NCBI GenBank assembly: GCA_902615435.1
Contig: CACMOZ010000003.1
Span: 62,001-126,000 of the forward strand
Reading direction: 5' to 3'
Source: an uncultured Pelagibacteraceae bacterium
GTDB taxonomy: Bacteria > Pseudomonadota > Alphaproteobacteria > Pelagibacterales > Pelagibacteraceae
DNA length: 64,000 bases
In this document: in pieces, positions 28,655 to 32,731 of the stretch
Layout of the letters: every line of letters starts with the position of its first letter
Numbering within the stretch: the first letter of the stretch is position 1
Program-made: the position numbers and the translations under genes
Notes under the pieces: model-generated
The model's input: only the letters and a program-made list of their open reading frames with translations
Database searches by the model: none
Told to the model about the DNA's origin: nothing

Positions 28655-28683
28655 TTGCAAATGATAATCATTCTCATTATATT
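28655..28683 (+). promoter_or_regulatory. Sigma70-type promoter of the iron operon
   Basis: TTGCAA (28655-28660), exactly 17 bases, then TATATT (28678-28683): good matches to -35 and -10 boxes at ideal spacing, 46 bases upstream of the iron-binding protein start. A Fur box fills the spacer and a second one covers the expected transcription start, giving textbook repression geometry. Confidence 0.75.
28657..28675. promoter_or_regulatory. Fur box 1
   Basis: The 19 bases match the classic enterobacterial Fur consensus at 16 positions, with the core AATGATAATCATT intact. It lies between the -35 and -10 elements. Together with box 2, centred 27 bp away, it predicts iron-dependent repression of the downstream Fe(III) transporter. 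Confidence 0.85.
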
Positions 28684-28702
28684 GTAAATGATAATCATTA
28701 TC
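28684..28702. promoter_or_regulatory. Fur box 2
   Basis: The 19 bases match the Fur consensus at 17 positions (AATGATAATCATTATC is perfect). It starts one base after the -10 box and so covers the transcription start. It is the better of the two boxes. Confidence 0.88.
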
Positions 28703-28729
28703 AATTTACGAGGAAAATTTGGGTAATAA

Positions 28730-29749
28730 ATGAACAAAACTATTGTGATAAGCTGTATATTTTTATTTGCTTTCACAAGCACTCTATTTGCGAATGAGGT
28801 GAATATATTTAGCGCTAGGCATTATGATTCTGATGTTCAACTTTACGAAAAATTTACTGCAAAAACGGGAATTAAAGTAAATGTTGTATCAGGCAAATCT
28901 GGTGCTTTAGAAAAAAGAATAATCGAAGAAGGTGCTGATAGCCAAGCTGATCTTTATATTACAGCAGATGCAGGAAGACTGGGTGCTTTTGAGGGAAATC
29001 TGCAGGGAGGACTTACAAGTTCAACTATAAAAAATGCTGTACCAAGTAACTTTAGAACTTCGAAATGGACTGGAATAGCAAAGAGAGCTAGAATTGTATA
29101 CTTTGCTCCAGAAAGAGTAAGCGGTTCAGAATTATTTGGTTTAACTTATGAGAGTTTAGCTGACCCTAAATGGAAGGGTAGATTAGTAATAAGAGCTTCA
29201 AATAATATCTACAATCAGTCACTAGTAGCGTCATTAATTAAAAATAATGGAAAAGAAAAAGTAGCAAAGTGGTCTAAAGGTGTAGTTTCTAATATGGCAA
29301 GGTCGCCTAAAGGAAATGATAGAGCTCAAATACTTGCTGTTGCTGCAGGAGAAGCAGATATAGCCGTGGTTAATACTTATTACTTGGCACTTATGCTTTC
29401 AGGAAAAAAAGGTCCTGAACAACAAGCAGCTGCCAAAAAAGTAAAACCTTTCTTTCCCAATCAAGATGGTAGAGGAACTCATATGAACATTAGTGGTGCA
29501 GGACTTGTAAAAGGTGCACCGAATAAAGCTAATGCAATAAAATTAGTTGAGTTCTTATTAAGTGAGGAGGCTCAAAACCACATAGTAAATAATACTTTTG
29601 AGTATCCAATGATAAAAGGTGTATCTCCTCATCCACTTGTTGTAAACATGGGATTAGATTTTAAACAAGATCTTAAAACCAAAGTTGTTAATTACGGAAA
29701 AGGACAAGCAGATGCTTTAGAGGTAATGACAGCTGCAGGCTGGAAGTAG
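28730..29749 (+). CDS. Fe(III) ABC transporter substrate-binding protein (FutA/IdiA type)
   Basis: Periplasmic ferric-iron binding protein, 339 residues. A signal peptide (MNKTIVISCIFLFAFTSTLFA) is followed by EVNIFSARHYDSDVQLYEKFTAKTGIKV, the FutA/IdiA/FbpA N-terminal pattern. The conserved double tyrosine NTYYLALML (about 218-226) supplies the usual iron ligands, and the His-Tyr of SARHY may add to the site. It is the first gene after two Fur boxes and a good promoter. The permease and ATPase follow after an insert that holds a micropeptide frame and an inverted repeat. Confidence 0.93.
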   Translation: MNKTIVISCIFLFAFTSTLFANEVNIFSARHYDSDVQLYEKFTAKTGIKVNVVSGKSGALEKRIIEEGADSQADLYITADAGRLGAFEGNLQGGLTSSTIKNAVPSNFRTSKWTGIAKRARIVYFAPERVSGSELFGLTYESLADPKWKGRLVIRASNNIYNQSLVASLIKNNGKEKVAKWSKGVVSNMARSPKGNDRAQILAVAAGEADIAVVNTYYLALMLSGKKGPEQQAAAKKVKPFFPNQDGRGTHMNISGAGLVKGAPNKANAIKLVEFLLSEEAQNHIVNNTFEYPMIKGVSPHPLVVNMGLDFKQDLKTKVVNYGKGQADALEVMTAAGWK

Positions 29750-29765
29750 ATTTTAATTAATTTAT

Positions 29766-29936
29766 ATGAGGCAAACAAGCAAAAATAATATTAACTTAAA
29801 TAAGTTAAATAAAGGCTGTTCGCCTTGTATGTCAGAGGCAAAAAAAATGGAAAAAAAGATTTCAAATAGAAAAGTCTCTGAAATTAAAATTGAAGAAGTA
29901 AAAGCAATAGTTTCTTCAATGTTTCGAAAAAATTAA
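29766..29936 (+). CDS. Putative 56-residue CxxC micropeptide in the iron operon
   Basis: Short open frame from ATG 29766 to TAA 29936, 16 bases after the binding-protein gene. The peptide has a polar Asn-rich start (KNNINLNKLNKG), a CSPC motif (18-21), then a Lys/Glu-rich helix (MSEAKKMEKK) and an amphipathic C-terminal segment (VSEIKIEEVKAIVSSMF). Codon composition looks coding, but no Shine-Dalgarno is evident before the first ATG; an internal start at 29829 would leave a 35-residue form without the CxxC. A metal- or redox-related accessory role is suggested only by the CxxC and the location. Confidence 0.45.
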   Translation: MRQTSKNNINLNKLNKGCSPCMSEAKKMEKKISNRKVSEIKIEEVKAIVSSMFRKN

Positions 29937-29940
29937 AAGT

Positions 29941-30009
29941 TTGACGTCAATTTCCCTGGTTTAAATGCTAGCTAAATTCTACACTCAAGCCGCTTTAACC
30001 AGGGAATTT
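29941..30009. repeat. Long imperfect inverted repeat with adjoining palindrome before the iron permease gene
   Basis: A perfect 10-bp palindrome TTGACGTCAA (29941-29950) runs into a 16-bp inverted repeat: AATTTCCCTGGTTTAA (29949-29964) and TTTAACCAGGGAATTT (29994-30009), pairing at 14 of 16 positions with two symmetric T-T mismatches around a CCCTGG/CCAGGG core, and a 29-base loop containing GCTAGC. There is no T-run after it, so it is not an ordinary terminator. It ends 22 bases before the permease start. It may be an mRNA processing/stability hairpin, an operator, or a structured leader. Confidence 0.7.
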
Positions 30010-30031
30010 AATATGATAACAGGGTCAAATA

Positions 30032-31648
30032 ATGACAAAATATAATGTTTGGTTTTTAAGCTCTTTAATAGTAGCTCTAATCGTTGCTCTTCCAATTATT
30101 ACAGTTTTTTTTAGCTTTTTTAATGAAACAAGTAATTATTTTACAGTTTTAAAGAACACATTCCTGTTTGACTATATTTTAAATTCAATAGTCATATTAT
30201 TGTTTGTGATTGTAATTACTTTTGTTTTAGGAGTCACTTCTGCATATTTTGTATCGTTTTATGATTTTCCTTTGTCTAATTTTTTTAGTTGGGCTTTGAT
30301 ATTAGCTTTTGCAGTTCCAGGATATATTTATGCGTTTTCAATAATTGCGTTTTTTGAAAATTACGGAACTGCATTTTCAATATTAACCTATTTTTTTGGG
30401 GAAAATAATTATAATTTTTTTATACCTAAAATCGATGGAATTACTGGAGCAATTTTAGCAATTTCTTTTTCACTTTTTCCTTATGTGTACGTTTTATCTC
30501 GAGCCTCTTTTCATTATCAGTCTAATAATTATATTGAGGTTGGAAAGAATTTAGGTCTTACTTCTAAAGAGACATTTTTTAAAATAATTTTACCTTCAGC
30601 TAGACCAGCTATTATAGCTGGATTAGCACTAGTATCGATGGAGTGTTTATCAGACTTTGGTACTGTATCTTTCTTTAGTGTTAATACTTTAACCACAGGA
30701 ATCTATAATTCCTGGCTTTCTTTCGATGATTTAAACACTGCAAATCAGATATCTTTTATATTATTACTATTTATTCTTTTTCTATTTTCTGTAGAAATTT
30801 ATTCTAGAAAAGAAGCAAGATACCATCAACCGGGTAGAGGCTTTAAGCCTATTACTAAAATAAAATTAAATGGAAGAAAAAGCATATTACCATTAATTAT
30901 CTGTTCATTAATACTGTCAATTAGTTTCATTTTTCCAGTTTCACAAATGATTTATTGGACAATTAAATTCCCTAAATATTTTCAAGATATAAATATTATT
31001 GATATAAACATTAATACTTTGTTTTTAGTATTACTAGCTAGCATATGTATTGTTATAACTTCTCTATTTATAAATTACGGAAGCAGGATTTCAAAAAGTA
31101 AAATTTTAAACTATTTAACAAACTTCTCAGTTTCCGGATACGCTATACCAGGTGTAATTCTTGCAGTTGCTTTTATAACTTTTTTTTCAAATTTGAGTGA
31201 TTTTCTTTCTGATAATTTAGGCATGAATAGTTCCAAAGGCATTTTCATAGGATCTATATTAGGATTAATTTTAGCCTATTTTGTAAGATTTTTTTCACTT
31301 TCTTTTAATGGAATTAAATCTAGTTATGAAAAAATTAATAATTCAATAGATGAAAGTGCTTATCTTTTAGGATACTCAAAAATTAAAACATTTTTAAAAA
31401 TTCATGTTCCTTATTTAAAAACAAATGTTATTTTAATCATGCTTCTCATTTCATTAGAAGTTATAAAAGAGTTACCGATCACTTTGATACTTAGACCTTT
31501 TAATTTTGAAACATTTGCAACTCAAGCGTACATTTATGCATCTCAAGATTTAATTGAAGCTGCTGCCTTACCATCACTTTTTCTTATATTCTGGTCTACA
31601 ATATTAATTCTACTATCATCTAAATATATACTTTCTAAAAAAAACTAA
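30032..31648 (+). CDS. Fe(III) ABC transporter permease (FbpB/AfuB type)
   Basis: Inner-membrane permease of 538 residues made of two fused permease halves with about 12 helices. Each half has an EAA-type loop: NYIEVGKNLGLTSKETFFKIILPSARPAI (first) and DESAYLLGYSKIKTFLKIHVPYLKTN (second). This double-domain form is standard for ferric iron importers. A Shine-Dalgarno-like AGGG lies about 7 bases upstream of the ATG at 30032. The ATPase follows after 12 bases. Confidence 0.93.
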   Translation: MTKYNVWFLSSLIVALIVALPIITVFFSFFNETSNYFTVLKNTFLFDYILNSIVILLFVIVITFVLGVTSAYFVSFYDFPLSNFFSWALILAFAVPGYIYAFSIIAFFENYGTAFSILTYFFGENNYNFFIPKIDGITGAILAISFSLFPYVYVLSRASFHYQSNNYIEVGKNLGLTSKETFFKIILPSARPAIIAGLALVSMECLSDFGTVSFFSVNTLTTGIYNSWLSFDDLNTANQISFILLLFILFLFSVEIYSRKEARYHQPGRGFKPITKIKLNGRKSILPLIICSLILSISFIFPVSQMIYWTIKFPKYFQDINIIDININTLFLVLLASICIVITSLFINYGSRISKSKILNYLTNFSVSGYAIPGVILAVAFITFFSNLSDFLSDNLGMNSSKGIFIGSILGLILAYFVRFFSLSFNGIKSSYEKINNSIDESAYLLGYSKIKTFLKIHVPYLKTNVILIMLLISLEVIKELPITLILRPFNFETFATQAYIYASQDLIEAAALPSLFLIFWSTILILLSSKYILSKKN

Positions 31649-31660
31649 TATAATCAAAAG

Positions 31661-32731
31661 ATGGCTAAGAATTTTTTTGAAATTCAGAACGGTAACTTTA
31701 CTGCGAGTGAAAAAAATAAAGTAAATAATGTAAATTTAACAATTAAAGATCAAGGAGAAATAATATCACTATTAGGCCCTTCCGGTATAGGAAAAACAAC
31801 TATTTTAAGAACTATAGCTGGATTACAAAAATTGAGCACTGGTAAAATTTTCTTAAAAAATAAAATTTTAGCTTCGAATGACATTCATATCGAACCAGAG
31901 GATAGAAACATTGCTTTATCTTTTCAGGACAATTCTCTTTTCCCAAATTACAAGGTTATTGATAATATTAATTTTGGAAAAAAACGATTAAATGGAAGTG
32001 TTTCAGCTTTAGATTCTGACGAGATAATAAAATTATTAAGAATTGAACCAATTTTAGATAAATTCCCACACCAAATTAGTGCTGGTGAGGCTCAACGAGT
32101 TTCACTTGCGAGATCTTTAATGTCTAAACCAGATTTATTGCTTTTAGATGAACCTTTTTCTAATATAGATCAGAGTTTAAAAGAGGAAATACAAGTTTCA
32201 GTAAAAAAACTTTTAAAAAGAATTAATTTAACTACCATAATTGTTACACACGACTCTTACGAAGCTTTTTCCATGGCAGATAAATGCGGGATAATTTTAA
32301 ACCAAGAATTAAAACAATATGACATACCTTATAATGTACATCACGAACCTAACTCTATTGATGTGGCAAATTTTTTAAATAAAGGAATTTTCATTGATGT
32401 ACAAGTAGTTGATAGCGAATGTGCAGTTCATAGATTAAAACACGATGAATTAGGTGAAATAAGAGGTAAGCTTTCTAATAATTTTCCATCTGGCTCTAAA
32501 GTAAAATTACTTTTACAACCTGAAGATCTTATCCACGATGATCAAAGCAAGTTAAAACTAGAAGTGGTAGACAGAAAGTTTAGAGGAACAAATTTTATTT
32601 ATACTTTAAAAACAAAAAAAGGTGAGCATTTGCCAGTATTTGTCCATTCTCATCATATTCATCAGCATGAAAAATCTGAGCAATTTGGAGTAAAGTCTCC
32701 GATTTTTATTGACCATTTAGTATGTTTTTAA
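31661..32731 (+). CDS. Fe(III) ABC transporter ATPase (FbpC/FutC type)
   Basis: Cytoplasmic ATPase, 356 residues. Walker A GPSGIGKTT (about 41-49), signature ISAGEAQRVSLARSL (a common FbpC variant of LSGGQ), Walker B LLLLDEPFSNID and H-loop VTHDSYEAF are present, followed by a C-terminal OB/TOBE-like regulatory region (about 245-356) that ends in the His-rich stretch VHSHHIHQHE. The His cluster (6 His near residues 336-345) could bind metal, an idea based on composition only. It closes the iron operon. Confidence 0.92.
   Translation: MAKNFFEIQNGNFTASEKNKVNNVNLTIKDQGEIISLLGPSGIGKTTILRTIAGLQKLSTGKIFLKNKILASNDIHIEPEDRNIALSFQDNSLFPNYKVIDNINFGKKRLNGSVSALDSDEIIKLLRIEPILDKFPHQISAGEAQRVSLARSLMSKPDLLLLDEPFSNIDQSLKEEIQVSVKKLLKRINLTTIIVTHDSYEAFSMADKCGIILNQELKQYDIPYNVHHEPNSIDVANFLNKGIFIDVQVVDSECAVHRLKHDELGEIRGKLSNNFPSGSKVKLLLQPEDLIHDDQSKLKLEVVDRKFRGTNFIYTLKTKKGEHLPVFVHSHHIHQHEKSEQFGVKSPIFIDHLVCF

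Follow-up and report, generated by a model that had tools for sequence, protein, structure and literature searches.

A conserved structured RNA between the binding-protein and permease genes of a Pelagibacteraceae iron-transport operon

In a 64-kb stretch of DNA from an uncultured Pelagibacteraceae bacterium (64,000 nucleotides in all, referred to here as the window), the genes for a periplasmic iron-binding protein and for the permease of the same ABC transporter are separated by a small gene and by a palindrome that runs into a long hairpin. What is such a structure doing in the middle of an operon? SAR11 bacteria, which rank among the sea's most abundant cells, possess a small set of regulators and little DNA to spare. 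A first reading of the window by itself (the sequence-only reading) had offered several answers: an RNA structure with a protective or processing role for the upstream mRNA, an RNA switch responding to iron, a binding site for a dimeric regulator and a weak internal promoter.

The operon is on the + strand and runs in the order Fur-box-like sites, sfuA, small CxxC gene, element, sfuB and ATPase gene. The two tandem Fur-box-like sites ahead of sfuA are AATGATAATCATTCTCA (28660-28676) and AATGATAATCATTATCA (28687-28703). Between 28656 and 28705 there are six overlapping matches, counted on both strands and with up to two mismatches, where 0.35 would be expected; none of 100 shuffles reached six. 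The sites at 28660-28703 resemble Fur boxes, and it is plausible that they already provide iron control of the operon. PMC2864753 describes the Fur box as several GATAAT hexamers.

The gene sfuA (28730..29749) encodes a ferric-iron periplasmic binding protein of the FutA/FbpA type (Pfam SBP_bac_6/1/8/11), and the matches of its product in the PDB include the iron-binding proteins 2pt1 (E 5.9e-91) and 7li0 (E 1.2e-70). We call the binding-protein gene sfuA throughout; the papers on strain HTCC1062 use sfuC. The permease gene sfuB (30032..31648) was identified as an open reading frame with a BPD_transp_1 match (E 1.1e-16), and its substrate is presumably iron, judging from the binding protein. 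The final gene (31661..32731), likewise an open reading frame, belongs to ABC transporter ATPase families; it matches the ferric ABC ATPase PRK11432 with E 1.1e-52, and among the best 25 of 199 families none reached the cut-off. The genome assembly to which the window belongs comprises 1.04 Mb and is rated 87% complete.

The small gene (29766..29936) has 56 codons and a CxxC motif, is rich in K and R by eye, and has no assigned family: its product gave no Pfam or NCBIfam match over the cut-off. Judged by its sequence variation it is under protein-level selection, because pN/pS is 0.22 (300 random pairs from 39 full-length copies) and both cysteines of the motif are invariant in 39 of 39 full-length copies. 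In one relative (genome G025, locus L022), the flavodoxin ends in a CxxC tail that by eye resembles the small protein, which suggests flavodoxin as a possible partner of the latter. Flavodoxin is an iron-free electron carrier.

The element itself is 68 nt long (29939-30006, + strand) and consists of UUUGACGUCAA followed by a bulged hairpin. Its first part is a conserved single strand, UUUGACGUCAAU (29940..29951), located 3 nt past the stop codon of the small gene; it contains the palindrome TTGACGTCAA, which is a perfect 10 bp at 29941-29950, just as first described. The long inverted repeat is also present, with arms of 16 nt at 29949-29964 and 29994-30009 that are 88% complementary and have 29 nt between them. 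The sequence-only reading had taken these 29 nt to be a loop; the spacing is correct, but they are not all loop. Folding gives an outer stem (29952-29961/29997-30006), then AAA/UUU pairs (29963-29965/29994-29996), GC/GC pairs (29967-29968/29992-29993) and, beyond an unpaired C at 29991, GCU/AGC pairs (29971-29973/29988-29990), and leaves a terminal loop of 14 nt (29974-29987). The 3' side of the internal loops, AGCCGCUUUA (29988..29997), is the best-conserved part of the hairpin. The hairpin as a whole (29952..30006) is supported by folding, by covariation in alignments of 10 and 48 rows, and by a covariance model that scores 92.4 bits in the window.

Could a hairpin of this kind arise by chance? 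The 68-nt element has a folding z of -3.36, with one of 200 shuffles folding equally well, and the region 29930-30030 has a z of -2.80, again with one of 200. The element is the sole place in the window with at least 14 of 16 positions paired, at least five G-C pairs and a loop of 3-40; among 20 order-1 Markov sequences of the same length, a hairpin of this grade occurred at one place in 5 and nowhere in the other 15. The patchy distribution among relatives described below would suit a neutral relic or a chance structure without function, but it is scarcely credible that the element is either, since compensatory changes and conserved motifs contradict it.

The hairpin drawn from a single sequence holds up in homologous loci: compensatory stem changes, whose absence the sequence-only reading would have counted against it, are found there. 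Of the 53 known copies, 48 (45 distinct) were entered in a MAFFT alignment; the other five (L067, L069, L070, L071 and L099) are identical to entered rows in the matched stretch and were added back as duplicates for the test on a tree. In this alignment the 15-pair structure has 96.9% of its cells paired, compared with at most 54.3% for structures slid along it. Two-sided changes occur in 22 cells distributed over six pairs, where shuffled alignments have a mean of 6.4 and none of 500 was equally high. On an sfuA tree of 53 tips there are eight cases in which both sides of a stem pair change on one and the same branch, and all eight preserve the pair; with changes placed at random, weighted by branch length, the mean was 1.8 and the highest of 2000 trials reached 7. 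A further statistic, the number of additional pair types, is neutral: it was equalled in 307 of 500 shuffles for the 10-row alignment of the element (A2), in 254 of 500 for the 48-row alignment (A4) and in 385 of 500 for a 12-row alignment (A5) of another hairpin, discussed below. RNAalifold, run on the MAFFT alignment, recovered the outer stem unaided, along with both inner G-C steps, and missed AAA/UUU. The inner pairs do not covary and are nearly invariant, so it is folding that speaks for their pairing. The element is thus an RNA structure kept by evolution. The excess of G-U cells (25) over A-C cells (11) favours an RNA read from the + strand.

Conservation is uneven along the element. 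With a gap treated as one more state, the columns of the 45 distinct copies have a mean identity of 97% for UUUGACGUCAAU, 98% for AGCCGCUUUA, 89-92% for the stems and for the internal-loop side AUGC, and 72% for the terminal loop. In other words, the palindrome and AGCCGCTTTA are 97-98% conserved and the loop is variable. The palindrome TTGACGTCAA is intact in 39 of the 45 distinct copies, and the other six carry changes on one side.

The covariance model, built from 10 carrier loci of the same genus, was searched against genomes of the family. At E <=0.01 it found one copy each in 53 of 397 genomes, always at the same junction and all within one of 14 genera. A draw across the order gave matches in nine of 297 genomes, each of them one of the 53. 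The filters in both searches were strict and may have passed over weak copies; one weak member (L111, 26.9 bits) is known, and a match set containing reverse-strand and chance matches (A3) was left out of the counts. A separate pattern scan returned 48 named records, 43 of them from Pelagibacteraceae or Pelagibacterales. Thirteen of the 48 loci were put to the covariance model, and all eight from Pelagibacteraceae among them matched; the five matches outside SAR11 (L113, L118, L121, L122 and L153) gave no covariance-model match at E 0.1. On this distribution the window's own genome is probably of the SAR11 type. No sfuA relative was confirmed in viral contigs, and no exact match to the element pattern was found in them.

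Within the genus the element is not universal. Among 25 loci with the binding-protein gene, including the one in the window's own genome, 10 carry the element, 13 lack it, one is cut by a contig end and one has a decayed remnant. In this last locus (L023, genome G002), TTTGACGT is still 3 nt past the stop of the small gene and the hairpin is gone. Presence and absence require 11 parsimony changes on a 68-tip tree of one gene, the binding protein, to which 43 tips were added as element carriers; shuffled labels give a mean of 12.9 and a minimum of 9. We read these changes, which are not clearly fewer than for shuffled labels, as repeated losses. The element is therefore dispensable on an evolutionary time scale, and the operon works without it.

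Where it is present, its surroundings are nearly constant on one side. All 53 carriers have sfuA and the small gene upstream, and either sfuB or a flavodoxin gene plus sfuB downstream. The palindrome starts 3 nt after the small-gene stop in 44 of the 53 and 1 nt after it in six; in the remaining three (L065, L075 and L100) the frame or the length of the small gene differs, the small gene of L075 being frame-broken. The distance to the next start codon ranges from 7 to 27 nt (12-27 nt in 49 of 53), and the next gene is flavodoxin in eight carriers (L064, L068, L072, L073, L074, L078, L079 and L080). Because the stop distance is nearly fixed while the start distance and the next gene vary, the element appears to belong to the end of the upstream gene. 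None of the 53 carriers has the element without small-gene sequence.

Several other features of this junction were considered. The first codons of the flavodoxin gene are ATG ATA in six of the eight carriers that have it, and many other carriers retain ATGATA at the flavodoxin position. In the window, a mini-ORF, ATGATAACA, begins at 30012 in the gap between hairpin and sfuB, and by eye it is common in relatives with the short form; together with ATGATA it may be what is left of a flavodoxin gene since deleted. The mini-ORF was rejected as a leader peptide, its start codon being lost in some relatives and its codons unconserved (by eye). Two further candidates were set aside, both by eye: in the window the palindrome is predicted to pair with the sfuB leader, but the partner GTCAAA is not conserved, and read-through of the small-gene stop codon would meet a frame that closes 12 codons on in the window and is not preserved in relatives, whose spacer is 3 or 1 nt.

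Does the palindrome act as DNA? The suggestions of an operator for a dimeric regulator and of an internal promoter with TTGACG as its -35 can be considered together, and singly or combined they now look very improbable. It is true that the palindrome is perfect over 10 bp and usually intact, that TTGACG resembles a -35, and that TAAAAT follows at spacing 18 in nine of 45 copies. However, the exact 11-mer TTTGACGTCAA occurs once in the 1.04-Mb, 87%-complete assembly, both strands included, and a palindrome with no other exact copy cannot, in that exact form, be an operator shared by a regulon. The one-sided changes, in variants such as TTTGATGTTAA and TTTGATGTCAA, also disrupt the symmetry of the DNA. 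As for the promoter, the spacing of the best downstream hexamer varies from 14 to 18: in 33 of 45 copies the best -10-like hexamer lies at 14 or 15, and in just 10 of 45 do at least four of six positions match at spacing 16-18, the window not being among the clear ones. This drift argues against a promoter, and a promoter scan gave no + strand site at the element.

The sequence-only reading had also held that the hairpin is no standard terminator, since no T-run follows it, and this is correct for the window, which has GAATTTAATATG after the stem, and for most relatives. A weak intrinsic terminator between the genes is accordingly most unlikely. TTTT does occur within 10 nt past the stem in six of the 53 carriers, and in four of these (L019, L072, L092 and L106) it starts within 2 nt; in the other 47 it is lacking at that distance, and T-runs, unlike the stem, are not conserved. 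The element is absent from a terminator scan that was limited to loops of 3-8. Nor does the element behave as a REP or mobile repeat, there being one match per genome in 53 and one place in its own genome for the arm-to-arm pattern. Pattern, covariance-model and exact 11-mer searches found no further copies in that genome. A trans-acting sRNA that uses the palindrome as its base-pairing seed is likewise not indicated, the 11-mer having no other exact copy on either strand.

If the element works as RNA, one possibility is a regulatory RNA, a switch bound by a protein or a ligand, that controls translation or transcription of flavodoxin or sfuB. The near-invariant unpaired and internal-loop bases do resemble a binding site. 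In addition, the final bases of the 3' arm in L019, L092, L097 and L106 are GAGG or GGAGG, a Shine-Dalgarno-like sequence 8-13 nt before the sfuB start; Shine-Dalgarno cores are found at eight of 51 ORFs and at none of 51 control positions, that is, at a minority of genes. The window, however, has CAGGGAA at 25 nt from the sfuB start, most carriers have 12-27 nt to the next start codon, and the downstream gene differs among carriers. The element is also a single locus and no regulon, and neither the consensus fold nor the window fold holds a conserved alternative structure. Neither in the window nor in seven related loci did any Rfam 15 family exceed its gathering score at the element, and the matches that overlie it are at chance level. 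For a switch responding to iron in particular, the Fur-box-like sites ahead of sfuA already offer a plausible control. We regard a switch as a tentative alternative, worth keeping in mind but on balance unlikely.

Another possibility is that the small CxxC protein binds the element at the 3' end of its own gene and so tunes the operon. Small-gene sequence is present in 53 of 53 carriers, with the element 1 or 3 nt past its stop in 50, and the protein is conserved, CxxC included. Against this, the small gene is kept without the element in several relatives (G011, G031, G015, G019 and G024, by eye), the frame-broken copy of L075 is in a carrier of the element, and no RNA-binding family was recognised in the small protein. 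Such autoregulation seems improbable.

This leaves the suggestion that a structured RNA protects or processes the upstream mRNA. Its structural part is borne out by the compensatory changes and its positional part by the tie to the upstream stop codon; the function is what we infer. Our preferred reading, to which we assign about as much belief as doubt, is an intercistronic mRNA 3'-end element, similar to that between malE and malF of Escherichia coli, which would divide the binding-protein mRNA from the permease mRNA. Endonucleolytic decay or partial termination downstream of the hairpin would come first. The hairpin would then form the 3' end of an mRNA comprising sfuA and the small gene, where it would bar 3'-5' exonucleases, and the binding protein would be produced in excess over the permease. 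In this mechanism UUUGACGUCAA, near-invariant and single-stranded, would act together with AUGC/AGCCGCUUUA as the site recognised by an RNA-binding protein or RNase, and the bound factor would set the cut or hold the structure.

Some observations do not suit a plain exonuclease barrier. Such a barrier needs neither an invariant 11-nt single strand nor specific bases in its internal loops, and the near-invariant UUUGACGUCAA and internal-loop bases, being more than it requires, call for a specific partner; the element is therefore probably recognised by a protein. The patchy presence, with 13 of 25 same-genus loci lacking the element, also counts against a 3'-end barrier. So does the fact that most of the protective structures mapped in E. 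coli are inside coding sequence, the one at malE being intergenic (PMC5927463).

The junction itself is informative beyond this genus. In genus g2 of f2, a different family of the same order, a hairpin of unrelated sequence directly follows sfuA. It has the form GAGGTAATTTG...CAAATTACCTC with the near-invariant loop CACCGTCTCTTCTTCTCATTAGTATC, and it is complete in 19 of 20 loci (L161-L168, L170-L175, L177 and L028-L031), the twentieth (L169) having lost the 3' arm. The 26-nt loop was found once in each of six g2 genomes (nine genomes searched), always beside sfuA. In 12 aligned rows, 15 stem cells have two-sided changes, compared with 7.4 in shuffled alignments (0 of 500 equally high); by the number of pairs that show such changes, the alignment does not exceed shuffled ones (225 of 500 equally high). 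No Rfam match was obtained in the three loci L162, L166 and L171. Two loci from other f2 genera (L027 and L176) have yet other hairpins after sfuA. Unrelated structured RNAs at the same junction are the best argument that the junction has a function, for example in the ratio of binding protein to permease. Together, the conserved RNA described here and the g2 RNA suggest that this ratio is set by RNA structure and not by an extra promoter.

Several individual f2 loci have further features. In L170 (G038), GGATACTAATTTTTA past the hairpin can pair with the loop part ATTAGTATCC and is followed by T's, an arrangement seen by eye in one genome that can be read as an attenuator-like alternative fold. 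Five g2 loci (L029, L030, L161, L162 and L164) have, by eye, a peroxiredoxin-like gene between the hairpin and sfuB. Several loci among L171-L177 have sequences like TTAGAACTATTCTAAA past the hairpin, which to us recall the Irr/ICE box.

A bolder reading is also conceivable. The element could represent an undescribed class of SAR11 regulatory RNA, located 1-3 nt past a stop codon, that a dedicated factor reads and that links the end of small-gene translation to expression of the redox or permease gene that follows; SAR11 lineages would then have evolved unrelated RNAs, this one and the g2 hairpin, independently for the same junction. We consider this rather unlikely. Should it hold, candidates for the factor would be the CxxC protein encoded next to the element, cold-shock proteins or a redox or iron ligand, though each is put forward with the same reserve.

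How does the element compare with what has been described? It appears neither in Rfam nor, by title, in the literature searched. Candidate RNAs from Pelagibacter ubique HTCC1062, also found by comparative analysis, include other SAR11 hairpins, some of them bulged single hairpins (Meyer et al. 2009, PMC2704228); among these is the rhtB element, roughly half of whose examples have a U-tract (PMC2704228). In the accessible text of that study, the region near sfu is the sfuC-SAR11_1239 intergenic region, for which it names no RNA and which is not the junction between binding protein and permease (PMC2704228). The sfu operons of HTCC1062 and HTCC7211 correspond to the one here; these are different strains, and neither is known to have the element. 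Under iron limitation, the mRNAs for binding protein, permease and ATPase of HTCC1062 are induced 16.0-, 10.4- and 5.0-fold (PMC2864753), and sfuA and sfuB are induced in HTCC7211 (PMC13271415). The falling induction in HTCC1062 is compatible with our preferred reading, a 3'-end element, and is not evidence for it, because that strain may have no such element and because fold changes do not give mRNA abundance. The RNA-level proposal made for HTCC1062 concerns cold-shock proteins (PMC2864753). PMC2864753 proposes the iron-binding protein as an indicator of iron limitation in the field, so the interpretation of metatranscriptomes depends in part on what determines its mRNA level compared with that of the other operon genes.

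The closest known counterpart is in E. coli, where a protective structure in the malE-malF intergenic region is reported to stabilise malE, and where, in the decay-regulated ABC operons described in the available part of PMC5927463, the stabilised gene is invariably that of the binding subunit. In both systems a stable hairpin comes straight after the binding-protein part of an ABC importer and before the permease (PMC5927463). The element shares with its counterpart the position at this junction, in 53 of 53 carriers (with flavodoxin in between in eight), and a stable fold under selection, and by this likeness it would also share a role in mRNA decay. Unlike the malE-malF hairpin, it is a single-copy, genus-specific structure with near-invariant single-stranded and internal-loop bases and a near-fixed distance from the upstream stop codon.
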